From Oscillatoriophycideae cyanobacterium NC_groundwater_1537_Pr4_S-0.65um_50_18 (GTDB lineage: Bacteria; Cyanobacteriota; Cyanobacteriia; Elainellales; Elainellaceae): a stretch of DNA of 64,000 bases. The stretch is taken from contig JACQYI010000009.1 of NCBI GenBank assembly GCA_016208305.1, forward strand, positions 1 to 64,000, given 5' to 3'. Positions 7,837-58,128 of the stretch are shown piece by piece. The translations under genes were made by a program, and so were the position numbers. Under the pieces are notes generated by a model. It searched no databases. It was not told the origin of the DNA and saw nothing but the letters and a program-made list of their open reading frames with translations. The number at the start of each line of letters is the position of its first letter. Position 1 is the stretch's first letter.

Positions 7837-10002
7837 TCAAAGTTTTTTGCGCTTCCGAGACTTTTTGGCTGGCTGTCGATCGCCGCTTTTGGCTGCCCCT
7901 GTTGCTGGTGTTGACCCTGTAAGTTGCTCTGCTCCGGCAAGCTCACCAAATTTGGGACTCCAAAAACTGCCCTTTGCCGTGTAAAAATAAACGGCCTCTT
8001 GATGCTGGCTATCTTGACGAGCCGCGCGATCGGAACAGCGCAGCAGAGTCTTGTGCTGTCCGTCCTTCTGGTAGACATGTTCTTCCATCGGCTTATGGCA
8101 AACCGGGCAAGGATATGCGGTGAGCTTTCCTGAGGTAGACGACCGTTGCGGCAATGGAGCCTCCTGACTGGCATGAGACTCAGGCTGAGCCGTGTTGCGA
8201 CTGGCTGCATACCCCAAGCCCAGCATTTGCTTCCGCGCCTGTTCTAGGGCAGGGGCAAAATAGCCGCGATTCCATTCATTGAGCCAGCGTTCCCAATTCA
8301 GCTCTCCTTGGGCGATTTGGTCAAGCGATCGCTCCATTTCAGCCGTAAATGTAGGATCGACTAATTTCATCAGCAGTTTCTCTAGCGCCGCATCCAAATC
8401 TAGCCCCAGAGCAGTGGGCTGCAATTTTCCTTTGACCACCTGCACATAGTCCCGCTGTTTCAGCGTTTTGATTGTAGGGGCATAGGTGGAGGGTCTGCCG
8501 ATGCCCCTACGCTCCATCAACTGCACCAGCTTAGGCTCAGAATAGCGTGGCGGTGGCTGGGTTTGTTTAGGTTCAGCCTGGGCTTGCTGAAGCGTTAACG
8601 CTTGCCCCTGGCTCAATGCGGGTAGCTGTGCATCAGTCTGCAAGTTATGCCAGTAGCGAGCATAGCCTAAGAATTCGACCATTTGCCCTCTGGTTTCCCA
8701 ATATAAATCGCCCGATTGGGTCACCACCCGCGTCTTGCGCAGCCGCGCCGAATTGCACTGGGAGGCCACAGCACGCTTCCAGATCAACACATATAGCGCA
8801 AAATCATCGGCACTCAGCTCAAGCTTAAGCTGAGCCGAGGGACGGTGCAGATCCGTAGGGCGAATAGCTTCATGTGCCTCCTGAGAACCTTTGCGGCTTT
8901 TGTGGCGCGTCATCTGCTTGGGCAGATTGTCAGGATCATGTGCCTCTAGCCAACCCCTGACGGCCTGACAAAACTCTGGACTCAGGGCAACGCTATCGGT
9001 TCGCATGTAGGTAATCAAACCTTTTTCGTAGAGCGACTGCGCCACCTGCATGGTGCGATCGGGGCTGAGGTGCAATTTTGCTCCTGCGGCCTGCTGAAGG
9101 GTTGAAGTAATGAAAGGCGGTGGCGGGGCTTGGTGGGCTATTTTCCCTTCAACCACTTGTACGGTATGTGACTGAGTCCGGGCAATCTCTACTAAGCGAT
9201 CGGCTTCGGCCTGCGAGAGAACGCGATCGGAGGTAGGGGCTTCTTGGGTTTCTCCCGTATCATCTGCGATGTCGATGGGGGCGTCTTCTGGGCTAGAGCT
9301 TGGGCTGGAGCCAGAAGCGGTAGCGTTTCGCCGAGGGCGGGTTGAAGGAGCAGCGGTGTTGAGCCTTACCCGATAAAAGGCGCGAAAGCCCTCCTGATAG
9401 TCCACCCAGACTGACCAATAATCTTGAGGTTGAAAGGCTTGAATTTCTCGCTCTCGCTGACACAATAAATGGAGCGTAGCGCTTTGCACCCGCCCCATCG
9501 ACTTTGCGCCAATGTTGAGCTTCCAAACCACATGTTTGCTGCCCCGGTAGCCCACGAGCTTGTCTAGGCAATCTCTGGCTCTGCCAGCGGCAATGAGATT
9601 GGCGTTGAGGGGTCGTGGTTGGGCGATCGCGGCTCTCACGGCATCGGCAGTAATTTCGTGATACACCACCCGCTGAGGATTCTTGAGCCGCAATTCCTGT
9701 GCCAAATGCCAGCTAATCACCTCTCCTTCTCGATCTTCATCACAGCCCAGGAAGACGCGATCGGCCTGTTTAACCACCTGCCGCAGATCGGCTAACACTT
9801 GTTTACCCTTAGTTCCTCTAGGCACATAGCGACACTGAACACTATTTTCGCTTAGATCAAAACCCAGGGCATCTTCGCCATCGTCAGCCAACTCTCTTAC
9901 ATGCCCCATGCTGGCTTTAACGATCCAGCCATTGCCAAGAATCTGTTTTAGCTTGGCAATCTTGCCGGGAGACTCAATTAAGAGCAGATGAACCATCGTC
10001 AA
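7837..10002 (-). CDS. topA: Type IA DNA topoisomerase (topoisomerase I, short form)
   Basis: A 721-residue enzyme that relaxes negative supercoils by single-strand passage. The Toprim domain starts at HLLLIESPGK and carries the acidic metal-binding motif DEDREGE at residues 88-94. The 5Y-CAP domain has the active-site Tyr332 in ITYMRTDS. Residues about 214-262 are a Ser/Pro/Glu-rich insertion without family counterpart. Only one Cys cluster (CPVCH with a later LRCSD, about residue 645-670) remains of the usual zinc-ribbon tail, and the protein ends in a basic KKSRKRKKL. It is shorter than the main cyanobacterial TopA (about 850-900 residues, several ribbons), so it may be a paralogue. M1 or M3 could be the start. 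It lies alone, upstream of menF. Confidence 0.9.
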   Translation of the reverse strand: MTMVHLLLIESPGKIAKLKQILGNGWIVKASMGHVRELADDGEDALGFDLSENSVQCRYVPRGTKGKQVLADLRQVVKQADRVFLGCDEDREGEVISWHLAQELRLKNPQRVVYHEITADAVRAAIAQPRPLNANLIAAGRARDCLDKLVGYRGSKHVVWKLNIGAKSMGRVQSATLHLLCQREREIQAFQPQDYWSVWVDYQEGFRAFYRVRLNTAAPSTRPRRNATASGSSPSSSPEDAPIDIADDTGETQEAPTSDRVLSQAEADRLVEIARTQSHTVQVVEGKIAHQAPPPPFITSTLQQAAGAKLHLSPDRTMQVAQSLYEKGLITYMRTDSVALSPEFCQAVRGWLEAHDPDNLPKQMTRHKSRKGSQEAHEAIRPTDLHRPSAQLKLELSADDFALYVLIWKRAVASQCNSARLRKTRVVTQSGDLYWETRGQMVEFLGYARYWHNLQTDAQLPALSQGQALTLQQAQAEPKQTQPPPRYSEPKLVQLMERRGIGRPSTYAPTIKTLKQRDYVQVVKGKLQPTALGLDLDAALEKLLMKLVDPTFTAEMERSLDQIAQGELNWERWLNEWNRGYFAPALEQARKQMLGLGYAASRNTAQPESHASQEAPLPQRSSTSGKLTAYPCPVCHKPMEEHVYQKDGQHKTLLRCSDRAARQDSQHQEAVYFYTAKGSFWSPKFGELAGAEQLTGSTPATGAAKSGDRQPAKKSRKRKKL

Positions 10003-10180
10003 ACTTCCCTAAAATTCCCTATTGTGGCTTCTCTCACCTTTATTTATAGTACATGCGTTTTATGTCGGTAGAGAGAATCGTTAGCAGATAGATATATTAC
10101 GTTGCGACACTAGAGTGTTGAGTTATTGCAAGGATGTTTATGCTTGAAGAAGTAAGCTATTTGGCTTAAAGATGAAAGGG

Positions 10181-10208
10181 TGTTCTCGAAGGTGTGTTCT
10201 CGAAGAAG
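10181..10208. repeat. Tandem 14-bp duplication
   Basis: TGTTCTCGAAGGTG (10181-10194) followed by TGTTCTCGAAGAAG (10195-10208), about 80 bases upstream of the ethylene-receptor-like kinase. Confidence 0.85.
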
Positions 10209-10284
10209 CAGTTTGCTCTGATTATGAAGTTTTAAGTTGTAAAAGCCATGATGTTGAACCCGACAAAAAGGTGGCAAGGCTCCT

Positions 10285-11742
10285 ATGCTTGAACTCCTTC
10301 AAGAACTGGTGGGGACAAATGGATTCATTCCCCACGGACATTGCTATCTTTGGAATCCCCTGTTGGTGTGGCTGCATGTCTTGGCCGACACAGGCACAGC
10401 GCTAGCCTACTACTCCATTCCACTCATCCTGTTTTATTTTGTGCAGCAGCGGCGAGATTTACCGTTTAACTGGATATTTTTGATGTTTAGTGCCTTCATT
10501 ACAGCCTGTGGCACGGTGCATCTCTTAGAAGTTTGGACGCTCTGGCACCCGATTTATTGGATCTCTGGAGGCGTTAAGGCAATCACGGCAGTTGTTTCTT
10601 TGGGAACAGCTGTGGCTCTCTTCTGGTTGATTCCTAAAGCGCTAGCGCTGCCCAGTCCTGCTCAGCTTGAACTAGCCAATCGGGAGCTGCAACAGCAGAT
10701 TAGCGATCGCCATAAAGCAGAGCTAGAGCTACTTCACAGCCGAGATCTGAAAGAAGCGATCTTTGATGAATCAACAGATGCCATCTTTCTGGTAGATCCT
10801 CAAACTTTGTGCACCATTGACTGCAATCGCTGTGCAGTGGAAATGTTTGAAGTAGCCAGCAAAAATGAGCTAATTGGTATTGCAGGGCATACGCTACAGC
10901 ACCATCAGTTTAATGCTGATGAGTTAGAGGCGATCGCTCAAGAAATGGACAGCAAGGGCTTTTGGAGCCGAGAAATTGAATATTGCACCAAGACAGGCCG
11001 AATTTTTTGGGGCTACATTGCAGCAAATGTTGTGCATGTGGCGGGAAAAGCGCTCAACTTAGTACGCGTTAGCGATGTCAGCGATCGCAAGCAAGCAGAA
11101 CAGCAGCTTCAGCAGTCTCTCCGCGAGAAAGAGGTTTTGCTAAAGGAAATTCATCACCGAGTTAAAAATAACTTGCAGATTGTCTATAGCCTCTTGCGAT
11201 TGCAGCGCCGTCAGCTCAAAGATCCTCAAGCTGTTGAAGCTTTGCTAGAGAGTCAAAACCGGATTGAAACGATCGCTTTGATTCACGAAAAACTTTACCG
11301 CTCTAAAGATTTGGGCAGCATTGACTTTTCTGAATATATTCCTGGACTGGTGAGTAACCTATTTAGTACCTATGATGTTAACGATCGACGAATCACTTTA
11401 GAAACTAAAGTTGAACCTATTGCTCTCGATATTGACAAAGCGATTCCCTGTGGATTGATCATTAATGAATTGGTTTCTAATGCGCTGAAGTACGCCTTTC
11501 CATCTGCACAAACGGGACAAATTGATGTCGAAATGAGATGGGGAGAAGATGCCCAGATCACGCTCATTGTGGGAGATGATGGCGTCGGATTTTCGTCCTG
11601 TTTTGATTTTTCTCAGCCTGAAACGCTGGGTTTGCAGCTTGTTGAAGATTTTGTGGCTCAGCTCAAAGGTCAGCTCCAGATTAGCCGCCACGCAGGTACG
11701 CAATTTAGTATTACATTTCCGGGAGGTGTATATGCCTCTTGA
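10285..11742 (+). CDS. Ethylene-receptor-like histidine kinase (ETR-type sensor, PAS, HisKA_2)
   Basis: A 485-residue membrane sensor kinase. The first 120 residues form three hydrophobic helices that match the ethylene-binding domain of plant ETR1 with a constant offset of ten: Asp35 (ETR1 Asp25), Tyr42 (Tyr32), Pro46 (Pro36), Phe71-Ile72, and the Cu(I) ligands Cys75 and His79 in ACGTVHLLEVWT (ETR1 Cys65/His69). A PAS domain follows (about 155-268), then a HisKA_2 box EIHHRVKNNLQ with His290/291 and a HATPase domain (about 370-483, DDGVGF). AAGG precedes the ATG by a proper distance. The stop overlaps the next gene by 11 bases, so the pair is translationally coupled. Ethylene binding is inferred from conserved residues; the Synechocystis SynEtr1 relative is known to respond to ethylene. 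Confidence 0.88.
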   Translation: MLELLQELVGTNGFIPHGHCYLWNPLLVWLHVLADTGTALAYYSIPLILFYFVQQRRDLPFNWIFLMFSAFITACGTVHLLEVWTLWHPIYWISGGVKAITAVVSLGTAVALFWLIPKALALPSPAQLELANRELQQQISDRHKAELELLHSRDLKEAIFDESTDAIFLVDPQTLCTIDCNRCAVEMFEVASKNELIGIAGHTLQHHQFNADELEAIAQEMDSKGFWSREIEYCTKTGRIFWGYIAANVVHVAGKALNLVRVSDVSDRKQAEQQLQQSLREKEVLLKEIHHRVKNNLQIVYSLLRLQRRQLKDPQAVEALLESQNRIETIALIHEKLYRSKDLGSIDFSEYIPGLVSNLFSTYDVNDRRITLETKVEPIALDIDKAIPCGLIINELVSNALKYAFPSAQTGQIDVEMRWGEDAQITLIVGDDGVGFSSCFDFSQPETLGLQLVEDFVAQLKGQLQISRHAGTQFSITFPGGVYAS

Positions 11743-47792: not shown

Positions 47793-49907
47793 ATGTCAGC
47801 TCAGCGTCCACCCCTGGAGGAAATGACCCTCCGACAACTCCGTCGAATTGCCAGCGAGCTGAATATTTCCCGCTATAGCCGAATGCGTAAAGATCAGCTC
47901 TTCAACGCTATTCAAGAAATTCAGCGGCTACAATCTGCTCCTGGCTCAACTCGTGTTGTAGAAGCTCAGGCAGAAGTAGAGGCCGCAAAGTTTGATGTTG
48001 GGCAACCCGCTCGCGTTAGCGTTGCTCTGGCTACCGTGGATGAAGTTTTGCCAGAGTTGCCTAGCGGCTATGGCGAAAGCTGTATTGTGCTGATGCCTCG
48101 TGATCCCCAGTGGGCATACGCCTATTGGGATGTTTCCAATGCCAGTAAAGAGGTTCTGCGTCGCCAGGGCGGTGTACGGCTAGCGCTGCGATTTTATGAC
48201 ATCACCAACGTGAATCTAGAAGTTCAGCGTCCCCACAGTTTGCAGCAATATGAATGCGACGAGCTGGCCAGAGAGTGGTATTTGCCAGTGCCCGTTAGCG
48301 ATCGCGACTACATGATTGAGATTGGCTATTTAACTTTAGAAGGTCGTTGGTTGGTACTGGCGCGATCGGCATCTGTAAGAATTCCGCCCGTCTATCCTAC
48401 TGATTGGATTGATGACCAATTCATTACGATCGATTGGGATGAAGACCTACGCAGCAAAACTTTTCTGAAACTAGTGCACCCTGCTCGACAGCTAACGTCG
48501 GTTAGCGTGGCTGAGCCTGTTGTTGAAACGGCATTTGTCTTGGCTAAAGGGGCTGAATCAAAGCGATCGGCAGGATCTGTGTTTGGTTCAATGCATCAAG
48601 TCCCAGAAGAGGCTATCAGCTCCTACATTTTCCCTTCGGGTATGGGGCAATGGGCTTCTGGAGCCGGTCAAGCCTCATCTGAGGTTTCGGGCGTGGGCAT
48701 GGTTTCTGGTATGGGTGCGGCAGGCATGTCGGGTGTCGGTGCAGCTGGCATGTCGGGCATTGGCATGACCTCTGGAGTCGGCATGGGTCTAATGTCGGGC
48801 GTCGGCGCAGCAAGTATGTCGGGTGTCGGCGTCATGTCTGGCGTTGGCATGACCTCTGGTGTCGGTATGGGATCTGGCATGGGTCTCATGTCAGGCGTAG
48901 GCGCAGCGGGCATGTCGGGTGTCGGTATGTCAGGCGTTGGTATGGCAGGCTTTAGCTTGACCTCTGGCGTGGGTATGCTGACGTCAGGCGTGGGCGCAGC
49001 GGGAATGTCGGGTGTCGGGATGTCGGGCGTTGGGATGTCGGGTGTTGGGATGTTGGGCATGTCGGGCGTTGGGATGTCGGGCATCGGCGCAACGGGCATG
49101 TCGGGCGTTGGCATGATATCGGGTATGGGCATGTATACGACATCAGGAACGGGTATGTCCGGTGTGGGCATGTCGGGCGTTGGGATGTCGGGCGTTGGGA
49201 TGTCGGGCATGTCGGGCGTTGGCATGATGTCGGGTATGGGCATGTATACGACATCAGGAACGGGTATGTCCGGTGTGGGCATGTCTGGTGTGGGCATGAT
49301 GTCGGGCATTGGCGCAATGGGAATGTCGGGCGTTGGGATGTCGGGAATGTCGGGTGTTGGCGCAATGGGAATGTCGGGCGTTGGGATGTCGGGAATGTCG
49401 GGTGTTGGAATGATGTCGGGCATCGGCATGTATACGACATCAGGAACGGGTATGTCCGGTACTGGCATGATGTCGGGCATTGGCATGTCTGGTGTGGGTA
49501 TGATGCCTGGCGGTATGTCCGGTATTGGCATGATGTCCGGTGTGGGCATGATGTCTGGTGTGGGCATGATGTCCGGTATTGGCATGATGTCGGGCGTGGG
49601 CTTCTCTGCTTCTATGCCTCCTATCCGTCCCCATAAATTCTGGATGGTGGCCGAAGCTGAGCTGATCATTCATGGCGTTACGGAAGCCGGTGCTAATGTG
49701 ACGATCGCCGGGCAGCCGATCAAGCTCAATCCTGATGGCACGTTTCGCATACAAATGTCTTTCCAGGATGGCGAAATTGACCTCCCAGTCATGGCAGTCG
49801 CAGCAGATGGAGAGCAGACGCGATCGATTCATCTAAAGTTCAAGCGTGAAACCCTAGAGCGTCACGCCAACCCTACCGAGGCATCTGTAGAAGAGTGGCT
49901 GTCTTAA
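47793..49907 (+). CDS. DUF4912 protein with a long MSGVG-type repeat region
   Basis: A 704-residue protein in four parts. Residues 8-45 form a Rho-N/SAP-like helix pair (EMTLRQLRRIASELNISRYS ... KDQLFNAI). About 95-200 is the DUF4912 domain (SCIVLMPRDPQWAYAYWDV ... YMIEIGYL). From about 298 to 603 there is an uninterrupted series of Met/Gly/Ser/Val units, mostly MSGVG and MSGIG, with MYTTSGTG inserts repeated three times. The C-terminal 90 residues return to the DUF4912-like segment (FWMVAEAELIIHG...). The reading frame is fixed by GGAGG eight bases before the ATG. Such proteins are thought to be structural or nucleic-acid associated; no function is established. The repeat DNA is also open on the other strand. 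A perfect 16-bp terminator follows. Confidence 0.9.
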   Translation: MSAQRPPLEEMTLRQLRRIASELNISRYSRMRKDQLFNAIQEIQRLQSAPGSTRVVEAQAEVEAAKFDVGQPARVSVALATVDEVLPELPSGYGESCIVLMPRDPQWAYAYWDVSNASKEVLRRQGGVRLALRFYDITNVNLEVQRPHSLQQYECDELAREWYLPVPVSDRDYMIEIGYLTLEGRWLVLARSASVRIPPVYPTDWIDDQFITIDWDEDLRSKTFLKLVHPARQLTSVSVAEPVVETAFVLAKGAESKRSAGSVFGSMHQVPEEAISSYIFPSGMGQWASGAGQASSEVSGVGMVSGMGAAGMSGVGAAGMSGIGMTSGVGMGLMSGVGAASMSGVGVMSGVGMTSGVGMGSGMGLMSGVGAAGMSGVGMSGVGMAGFSLTSGVGMLTSGVGAAGMSGVGMSGVGMSGVGMLGMSGVGMSGIGATGMSGVGMISGMGMYTTSGTGMSGVGMSGVGMSGVGMSGMSGVGMMSGMGMYTTSGTGMSGVGMSGVGMMSGIGAMGMSGVGMSGMSGVGAMGMSGVGMSGMSGVGMMSGIGMYTTSGTGMSGTGMMSGIGMSGVGMMPGGMSGIGMMSGVGMMSGVGMMSGIGMMSGVGFSASMPPIRPHKFWMVAEAELIIHGVTEAGANVTIAGQPIKLNPDGTFRIQMSFQDGEIDLPVMAVAADGEQTRSIHLKFKRETLERHANPTEASVEEWLS
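48684..49610. repeat. Coding tandem repeat array (MSGVG units)
   Basis: About 900 bases of near-15-base units like ATGTCGGGCGTTGGG inside the DUF4912 gene, with longer units around ATGTATACGACATCAGGAACGGG occurring three times. The repeats differ at synonymous positions, so older than a fresh expansion. Confidence 0.9.
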
Positions 49908-49928
49908 TAGCTATGTCTTAATAGCTAT
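49901..49928. repeat. Tandem 14-bp duplication over the stop codon
   Basis: Two perfect copies of GTCTTAATAGCTAT, the first including the stop codon of the DUF4912 gene. Confidence 0.9.
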
Positions 49929-49957: not shown

Positions 49958-49998
49958 TTAAGGTTTTGTGGCGTGCGCCACAAAACCTTAATTTTTAT
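49958..49998 (+). terminator. Strong terminator of the repeat-protein gene
   Basis: A 16-bp perfect stem, TTAAGGTTTTGTGGCG (49958-49973) with its complement (49976-49991), followed by TTTTT. Its core GGTTTTGTGGCG recurs in the element at 45407-45498. Confidence 0.9.
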
Positions 49999-56198: not shown

Positions 56199-56265
56199 TT
56201 AGTTCTCCTATGAAAATTTGAAAGAAGCGATCGCCCACTGGGGCGAAGGCGGCGACAAAACTGCG

Positions 56266-58128
56266 ATGGGTAAAAATTGGGCCATTGTGATTGGTGTTAA
56301 CAATTATGAGTCTTTGCCTCGTTTGAAATATGCCAAACGAGACGCAGAACTCATGCGCGACTTTCTCATCAAGCAGGCAAAGTTCGATCGCGTTTACCTG
56401 TTTTCAGATGATTCTCCAGATTACGAAGGCAACTCCACCAAGCCCACGGTGGTCAATTTACGGCGGGTGTTGCGGCAGCTATTCAACCAGCCCTGCTTAA
56501 GCCGGGGTGACAACTTTTGGTTCTTTTTTAGCGGACATGGCACGCGCTATCAAGATCAGGATTATCTGATGCCGATCGATGCCGATCCAGGTGATATTAA
56601 CCACACAGGGATTGCCACGCAATATATTAGCGATCGCCTCAGCCGCTGCGGTGCCGATAATGTTGTGTTGGTTCTGGATGCCTGCCGCAACCAGGGGGGC
56701 AAAGCCTTACCCAGTATGGGCAGCTCTACTGCACTGCTAGCTGGGCAAAAGGGAATTATTAGCCTGTTTTCATGCAGTCCTGGACAGCTATCCTATGAGG
56801 TCGATGCCCTGAAGCAAGGCGTATTTACCCATGTCTTGCTGCAAGCTTTGGGAAAGGTAGGCCGCTGTGCTACCGTTGAGCAATTGAACCAGTACATGAA
56901 AAGCCATGTGCCTGAGCTGCTATACCACCACCACAAACATAGCGGTCAAACTCCCTATACGCGCGTTGAACCGATCGAGCGATCGCATTTGATCTTGATG
57001 CCGCAATATGCGGAACCCGCCGATATTGAAGCGCTGAACCAAGCCGCCGCAGCCCTGCGTAGCGATAACTCGGCGTTAGCAGAGCAATTGCAGTCACGGG
57101 CGATCGCGGCAGAAGCGATTCTGGATCAAGCTCCGCCTGCAAAGCCATTTTCGCGCCGCCGATTAATTAGACTTGCGGGTTTTGCCGCAACCGGAATAGG
57201 TCTGGGAACTGTAACTGCGGTGTTCACTCGCCCTAGTCTTTCTCCTACACCGAACGACACCCCTTCTAGTACTGCGCTGCCTCAGCCCGATCGCTCATCG
57301 GCGGCATCTGCAACCTTTTCACCCTTTAGCTTTAAGGTCGTCACTGTCGATGCTCAAGGTCAAATCAGCGAACCACAGCAGCAGCAAGCCCAACACTTTA
57401 TTCAAGATTTGGGCGGTGTTGCCCTAGAAATGGTGGTAGTTCCAGGCGGCAATTTTGAGATGGGATCGGCTGCATCGGCAGCGACAAGTCCTGTTCACGC
57501 TGTCGAGGTGCCCACCTTTGCGATGGGCAAGTATGCCGTGACTCAGGCTCAGTGGCAGGCGATCGCCCGTCTCAATGCCGTTGGAAAAATCCTTGAAGAA
57601 AATCCCTCTCGGTTCAAAGGAGCCAACCGACCCGTAGAACAAATTTCTTGGCGAGAAGCGGATGAATTTTGTAAGCGGCTGTCTCGCCACAGCGGACGCG
57701 CCTATCGGCTGCCCAGCGAAGCCGAGTGGGAATATGCCTGTCGCGCCGGAACCGTAACCCCTTTTCACTTTGGTGAAACTCTAACGCCTCAGTTGGCAAA
57801 CTATGGCATGAGCCGCCTGGAAACCACTCCAGTCGGATCTTTTGGCGTTGCCAATGCCTTCGGGCTGTATGACATGCATGGCAATGTCTGGGAATATTGT
57901 GCTGACCAGTGGCGCAAAAATTACGACAATGCGCCCAGTAACGGCAGCGCCCAGCTTGATAGCAATCCCAATTACACTCGCGTCATTCGGGGTGGGGGGT
58001 GGCTCAATGGTATGGATCAGTGTCAGACGGTCTTCCGCATCCACTATGGCGAAGATGTGAAAAGTTGGACACTCGGCTTTTGGGGTGGATCAGACTTGGG
58101 ACTCCGGGTGGTTTGTGATCTGAGCTAA
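56266..58128 (+). CDS. Orthocaspase fused to a formylglycine-generating-enzyme-like domain
   Basis: A 620-residue protein. The N-terminal caspase-like (C14) domain has the catalytic His91 in FFFSGHGTRYQDQDYL and Cys140 in VLVLDACRNQGG. A predicted membrane helix follows (about 295-320, LAGFAATGIGLGTVTAVF), then a Pro/Ser linker. The C-terminal 250 residues are a formylglycine-generating-enzyme (SUMF1)-like domain: MVVVPGGNFEMGS, YRLPSEAEWEYACRAG, LYDMHGNVWEYCAD, VIRGGGW, and LGLRVVCD. The start at 56266 is used because it opens the caspase fold; a TTG at 56218 adds 16 residues. Such fusions are known in cyanobacteria but their function is open; a membrane-tethered protease sensing ligands through the FGE fold is inference. 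Confidence 0.9.
   Translation: MGKNWAIVIGVNNYESLPRLKYAKRDAELMRDFLIKQAKFDRVYLFSDDSPDYEGNSTKPTVVNLRRVLRQLFNQPCLSRGDNFWFFFSGHGTRYQDQDYLMPIDADPGDINHTGIATQYISDRLSRCGADNVVLVLDACRNQGGKALPSMGSSTALLAGQKGIISLFSCSPGQLSYEVDALKQGVFTHVLLQALGKVGRCATVEQLNQYMKSHVPELLYHHHKHSGQTPYTRVEPIERSHLILMPQYAEPADIEALNQAAAALRSDNSALAEQLQSRAIAAEAILDQAPPAKPFSRRRLIRLAGFAATGIGLGTVTAVFTRPSLSPTPNDTPSSTALPQPDRSSAASATFSPFSFKVVTVDAQGQISEPQQQQAQHFIQDLGGVALEMVVVPGGNFEMGSAASAATSPVHAVEVPTFAMGKYAVTQAQWQAIARLNAVGKILEENPSRFKGANRPVEQISWREADEFCKRLSRHSGRAYRLPSEAEWEYACRAGTVTPFHFGETLTPQLANYGMSRLETTPVGSFGVANAFGLYDMHGNVWEYCADQWRKNYDNAPSNGSAQLDSNPNYTRVIRGGGWLNGMDQCQTVFRIHYGEDVKSWTLGFWGGSDLGLRVVCDLS

Follow-up and report, generated by a model that had tools for sequence, protein, structure and literature searches.

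A lineage-specific SGxG repeat array in the linker of a cyanobacterial Rho_N-DUF4912 protein

The window, by which we mean the whole 64,000-nucleotide stretch analysed (positions 1 to 64,000 of contig JACQYI010000009.1, assembly GCA_016208305.1, from an Oscillatoriophycideae cyanobacterium), encodes a 704-aa protein in which about 300 residues of Met-Gly-Ser-Val repeats separate a Rho_N-DUF4912 head from a conserved tail. The locus raises the question of how such a repeat came to lie within this protein and what it might do there. The features of the gene are as follows.

47793-49907, forward strand: gene for the 704-aa Rho_N, DUF4912, SGxG array and Ig-like tail protein (ORF listing, Pfam)
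47814-47912, forward strand: Rho_N domain, aa 8-40, a helical head with conserved SRYSRMRK (Pfam PF07498, E 3.3e-11)
48069-48416, forward strand: DUF4912 domain, aa 93-208, predicted fibronectin-III-like beta sandwich (Pfam PF16258, E 1.2e-41)
48573-48641, forward strand: conserved linker start GSVFGSMHQVPEEAISSYIFPSG, aa 261-283 (orthologue alignments)
48681-49601, forward strand: SGxG repeat array, aa 297-603, 46 cores, consensus MSGVG(M)
49131-49154, forward strand: first MYTTSGTG unit (aa 447)
49242-49265, forward strand: second MYTTSGTG unit (aa 484)
49428-49451, forward strand: third MYTTSGTG unit (aa 546)
49602-49625, forward strand: junction FSASMPPI, found in similar form in many short-linker orthologues
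49626-49904, forward strand: conserved Ig-like tail, beginning FWMVAEAELIIHGVTEAGANVTI (sub-threshold Glucodextran_B match, E 4e-4, aa 619-677)
48668-49669, reverse strand: antisense open frame of 333 codons (ORF listing)

The initial annotation had placed the repeats between a Rho-N/DUF4912 head and a DUF4912-like tail. The head was borne out by matches to Rho_N (43.4 bits, cut-off 24.9) and DUF4912 (142.1 bits, cut-off 29.4) above the Pfam gathering scores, and these were the only Pfam families over cut-off in the protein. The tail could not be upheld as a second DUF4912, for BLASTP of the DUF4912 domain against it returned no alignment at E <= 100, and its sole Pfam matches were sub-threshold hits to the Ig-like families Glucodextran_B and Big_6. 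The protein has the small N-terminal Rho_N domain in common with transcription termination factor Rho and differs from it in the absence of the Rho core, to which no NCBIfam match was obtained at E <= 0.01.

The array comprises 307 aa (G 108, M 66, S 51, V 34), and its limits fall 3 and 9 bases from the 48684-49610 first proposed. When the residues were shuffled 1000 times at constant composition, SGxG cores averaged 6.3 and never exceeded 15, against the 46 observed. Of the 45 intervals between cores, 42 measure 8, 6 or 5 residues, and the MYTTSGTG inserts recur three times as described earlier. Methionine makes up 21.5% of the array versus 2.8% of the remainder of the protein; at 10.9% overall, the protein has the highest Met content of the window's 39 non-overlapping ORFs with 150 aa or more, for which the median is 1.9%. 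Cys and His are absent from the array, and Glu and Pro occur once each, the latter in MMPGGM. Synonymous and non-synonymous differences between tandem copies were counted on four arrays chosen from 19 TRF rows. Pooled over three of them, pS was 0.34 and pN 0.07 (synonymous differences 15.5/45.8 sites, non-synonymous 10.5/143.2), and the fourth (111 bp) gave pS 0.34 and pN 0.225 in an ungapped comparison confounded by indels. This excess of synonymous over non-synonymous differences fits selection acting at the level of the peptide.

It is highly improbable that the repeat is an assembly artefact or that the open frame opposite it is a gene. The initial annotation had attributed the opening of the opposite strand over more than 330 codons to unit composition, and over the array the 333-codon frame indeed remained fully open in 500 of 500 synonymous recodings; it thus follows from the amino-acid sequence, and an antisense gene at 48668-49669 was rejected. 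As to assembly error, head and tail were not joined in 9 of 80 named loci from relatives, and the contigs of six of these (L087, L090, L092, L097, L105 and L129) stop no more than 6 bases from where the match ends, indicating that the region is hard to assemble. Against an artefact, exact repeats within the array extend to no more than 56 nt, and similar arrays turn up in independently assembled genomes, one of them a single 5.5-Mb contig (G011) whose copy without Rho_N carries a 291-aa linker with 32 SGxG motifs. Together these two points make assembly error unlikely.

A search for the repeat in other cyanobacterial DUF4912 proteins, which the initial annotation had suggested, traced it to a short linker. 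All 60 genomes searched, the window's own among them, returned a protein match, and DUF4912 was present in 61 of 62 same-class genomes; 50 of the 60 contained an assembled Rho_N copy with the tail, the rest being partial, left out or without a joined head and tail. These cyanobacterial proteins resemble that of the window in possessing Rho_N, DUF4912, an SGxG linker and the Ig-like tail, and differ in linker length, since most sampled linkers are shorter than 45 aa, as in 49 of 71 head-to-tail ORFs of named relatives (at least two of the 71 being copies without Rho_N), whereas the array alone measures 307 aa here. The usual short linker approximates VGMWAVPTxSGLTMSGVGMSGVGFSASAPPI, and most short linkers already hold one to three SGxG motifs, the first of which (PSGVGMW) retains its S, G and G in every one of the 29 short orthologues aligned. 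Among assembled Rho_N copies outside the window's family, the linker contains at least one SGxG in 20 of 22 and none in two. In other classes of the phylum, the tail was recognisable behind DUF4912 in four of eight genomes, with linkers mostly devoid of SGxG.

Linker lengths span 18 to 457 aa across the genomes sampled, and linkers of at least 60 aa were found in 16 of 28 assembled Rho_N copies of the window's family versus one of 22 outside it. The longest belong to an uncultured Oscillatoriales (457 aa), Okeania (431 aa) and Spirulina (276 aa); long arrays are present in these and in Elainella, with smaller gains in Microcoleus and Tychonema. The SGxG expansion is thus lineage-specific and has occurred in several lineages. 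Other motifs have grown in some genomes, namely SSYxV repeats, which fill the 432-aa linker of Microseira wollei (L118), and GSxQHVA in L042 and L143; the SSY and GSxQ elements in question are those of the conserved linker start. The whole linker is therefore the evolving object, of which SGxG is the commonest unit seen. Judging from these alignments, the array most likely formed when the SGxG motifs of a short ancestral linker were multiplied by repeated in-frame tandem duplication. The initial annotation had also considered that the repeat might occur in all relatives as a known, characterised domain. The motif is indeed usual in relatives, but there it sits in a short, uncharacterised linker, of which the long array is a variable expansion.

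Comparison of 43 arrays with at least 10 SGxG motifs revealed a unit density of 0.10-0.165 per residue, part of which steadiness is built in since the arrays were chosen by SGxG (the set is distinct, although at least one array is a truncated copy of another). Independent support for the core therefore comes from the short-linker alignment and from the small genomes of family f2, apparently picocyanobacteria-like, in which a Met-free SGxG linker (e.g., NESGSGLWASGRNESGLGG) was found in four of four. At position x the 43 arrays mostly have V, I, M or A, and the core is usually followed by a hydrophobic residue (M, L, I or V).

These comparisons bear on a Met-specific role, be it the metal binding or redox sink raised in the initial annotation or a redox-switched condensate. 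The 66 Met among 307 array residues invite such a role, and there is a precedent in yeast Pbp1, whose droplets melt upon Met oxidation according to excerpts of PMC8394241. The same excerpts describe Pbp1 as self-associating. Pbp1/ataxin-2 and the window protein are alike in their Met-rich low-complexity regions, and Pbp1 has domains for RNA binding; LSm and LsmAD, however, have no Pfam match here, and Met is unsteady in the DUF4912 family. Met content ranges from 7 to 24% over the 43 arrays, several of which have only 7-10% Met together with Met-free YTQSGVG and LTE units, and the f2 linkers dispense with Met altogether; Met was accordingly rejected as a steady array feature. Such poor conservation, in addition to the lack of Cys and His and the single Glu in the window array, renders metal binding or a redox sink unlikely as a family-wide role, and we consider a Met-specific function very unlikely overall. 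A local redox effect in Met-rich arrays such as the window's is possible.

To what extent the array is structured was addressed with an AlphaFold2 model built on 48 orthologues. Mean pLDDT by block was 92-95 for Rho_N (residues 11-40), 74-94 for DUF4912 (residues 101-200) and 84-93 for the tail (residues 621-690); in the array, all residues but one fell below 50 and no secondary structure was predicted. The array is therefore predicted to be an intrinsically disordered, repetitive region between folded domains, for which the flexible scaffold or phase separation named in the initial annotation is a possible role. A second run on a short orthologue with 29 sequences was poorer (mean pLDDT 59.9). 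The DUF4912 model, itself a prediction, superposed on the FN3 structure 6mfa (VIA Z 9.5, rmsd 3.0, 89 aligned residues, 8% identity) and gave a best Foldseek E of 1.2e-4, and PDB sequence matches up to E 1 were confined to Rho N-termini (3l0o, 7oqh). Elastin and elastin-like polypeptides, built of GVG/VPGXG repeats, are disordered, uncharged chains of short Gly-Val-rich pentads. The array shares this Gly-Val-rich, uncharged and apparently disordered character, and differs in lacking VPGXG and in having one Pro in 307 residues.

We tentatively regard the array protein, with somewhat less than even confidence, as a core cyanobacterial Rho_N-DUF4912 protein in its long-array form, in which the repeats would act as a disordered multivalent tether or scaffold and their number would set its valence. 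The array would be a weakly sticky, multivalent tether joining two folded beta-sandwich domains, and its units of the form SG-hydrophobic-G-hydrophobic could make many weak contacts with one another, possibly also with the units of a partner, from which we propose that repeat number sets both reach and valence. We infer that the array may self-associate, and the Rho_N head, presumed to bind nucleic acid, would place the scaffold there. Some observations count against the tether reading, one being that certain linkers lack SGxG, as in the two of 22 outside the family and in Microseira with its SSYxV repeats.

A second expanded copy was identified in the window's own genome. The protein, encoded on another contig (C60), has 1397 residues with PBP_like_2 and three DUF4912 domains over cut-off, the same Ig-like tail, and a 309-aa linker holding 42 SGxG motifs; by eye it has a signal-peptide-like start and a transmembrane stretch after the PBP domain. 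By the positive-inside rule for membrane proteins, the portion with the DUF4912 domains and the array should lie on the cytoplasmic side. It was the one convincing further array protein in this genome, where the search otherwise returned two weak matches (E 0.006 and 0.16). Two proteins on own contigs C55 and C50 (L004 and L007) have two DUF4912 domains each without an array, preceded by N-terminal parts that appear PBP-like by eye.

Twenty-five genomes encode a Rho_N copy alongside one without Rho_N, and in these the SGxG unit numbers of the two copies co-vary (Spearman 0.83; r 0.72 on independent contrasts, p 5e-5), as do the linker lengths (Spearman 0.68; contrast r 0.55, p 0.004), and no such correlation was detected with inter-domain length or genome size in the same comparison. 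For the SGxG-number contrasts, the rank correlation was 0.41 (p 0.04), signs agreed in 15 of 24, and r stayed at 0.60-0.79 when any one contrast was dropped. Gene conversion between the paralogues was rejected as the main cause of the parallel growth, since spacers are barely more alike within a genome than when shuffled (0.50 versus 0.44; 231 of 5000 shuffles reach this value; 13 expanded pairs), which suggests that the two arrays, although they tend to be long together, grew mostly through separate events.

The main rival to the tether reading is near-neutral slippage, in which the linker tolerates added units, its length drifts up in some lineages with function unchanged, and merely a flexible, mostly uncharged composition is retained. 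This explanation is a serious one, though we lean against it. It would account for the great length differences among related genomes: the linker of the same-genus genome G003 (identical in sequence to that of Drouetiella hepatica, L010 and L081, so that the window probably belongs to that genus) has 172 aa and that of the window 328 aa, a gap that fits a length-indifferent linker and so weighs against the tether. It would also account for the growth of different motifs by lineage (SSYxV, GSxQHVA). Tandem repeats are somewhat richer in the flanks of long-linker named loci (28.0 versus 15.6 bp/kb), a weak, non-significant excess (Spearman 0.19, p 0.12, 65 loci) that leaves room for general slippage. 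Moreover, the co-variation depends much on three contrasts, r falling to 0.37 (p 0.09) without the three largest, which again tells against the tether. Slippage does not so readily explain why two paralogues of one genome expanded with co-varying unit numbers when the inter-domain linker did not follow, nor the excess of synonymous over non-synonymous differences, clear in three of the four tandem arrays and weak in the fourth.

Alternatively, the SGxG units might be short linear motifs that dock onto a separate partner instead of each other, as the VTG/Y repeats of CsoS2 do onto the carboxysome shell, repeat number then setting avidity. Retention of SGxG in short linkers and in the picocyanobacteria-like genomes suits this idea, for which CsoS2 of the alpha-carboxysome provides a precedent of weak multivalent repeats that drive assembly (excerpts of PMC11365436). 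In the same excerpts, the CsoS2 repeats comprise (V/I)(T/S)G triplets 8 residues apart, Cys pairs, a Lys and a Tyr. The CsoS2 middle region and the array are alike in their disorder, predicted for the array, in their short conserved repeats and in their weak multivalent contacts, which for the array are proposed; the array differs in lacking Cys and in its accompanying domains, and no Pfam match to CsoS2 was found. The wide variation of SGxG flanks is loose for a docking motif. In addition, none of the neighbouring genes is widely conserved across 63 named loci plus the window: the commonest cluster, which is a broad kinase/response-regulator group, was seen in 23 of these 64 stretches, and the next ones in 21, 20 and 18, the window not being among them. 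A conserved operon partner was rejected on this sample. A neighbour gene in nine of the 64 stretches, the window included, is one that we take to be DUF2993-like. Docking onto a separate partner appears unlikely on balance.

Returning to the tether, the membrane-anchored paralogue would put an SGxG array and tail at the membrane, and because it has the same units and the same tail as the Rho_N protein, the two could share an assembly. In its boldest form, the Rho_N paralogue on nucleic acid and the membrane paralogue, with its periplasmic phosphate-binding-like domain, would co-assemble through an expandable SGxG code, a speculation to which we attach little probability. If it were true, a matched and evolvable repeat valence would link the envelope with the nucleoid or the transcripts in bacteria without Rho. 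We know of no described counterpart of a repeat-coded tethering system of this kind.

Rho proper (NCBIfam TIGR00767) scored over cut-off in none of 64 same-class genomes, compared with 12 of 82 others of the phylum. A Rho_N domain is presumably present in chloroplast RHON1 as well. That protein has been reported to resolve R-loops (excerpts of PMC10761990). The same-class result agrees with the statement in excerpts of PMC10287535 that cyanobacteria lack Rho. An entry of Nostoc 7120, all2705, is listed as 'Rho termination factor' in the part of PMC8147232 at hand and may be a member of the Rho_N-DUF4912 family. The mainly open-access literature searched yielded no description of an MSGVG-type repeat or its DUF4912 protein and none of a DUF4912 function, the sole paper there that mentions DUF4912 being a cotton transcriptome.

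The family is near-universal in the oxygenic cyanobacteria sampled and figures in the sources searched solely as a domain of unknown function. Disordered repeat scaffolds are already known; what is new here is a motif-grown, expandable linker in a near-universal family, occurring in paralogous pairs. With linkers running from 18 to 457 residues across two kinds of copy, the family constitutes a natural test of the way in which a disordered bacterial linker is tuned by its repeat number. It also offers a first handle on a Rho_N protein in bacteria where no Rho was detected, as well as on the phosphate-receptor-like paralogue of that protein.

Several minor observations were made beside the gene and its relatives. 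In Microseira wollei L118, about 430 residues of SSYxV repeats without an SGxG array are encoded at 8001-10403. In the window, the 14-bp unit TGTCTTAATAGCTA stands in about two tandem copies at 49900-49928, so that the stop-codon region of the array gene is duplicated. Between this gene and a convergent gene identified by eye as GGDEF/EAL-like lies a perfect 15-bp stem with a 4-nt loop, followed by a T-rich stretch (49958-49991; the segment 49940-50006 folds at -22.7 kcal/mol, z -5.3), which is probably a bidirectional intrinsic terminator. The ORF at 56218-58128 appears by eye to combine a caspase-like peptidase with a formylglycine-generating-enzyme-like (sulfatase-modifying) domain.
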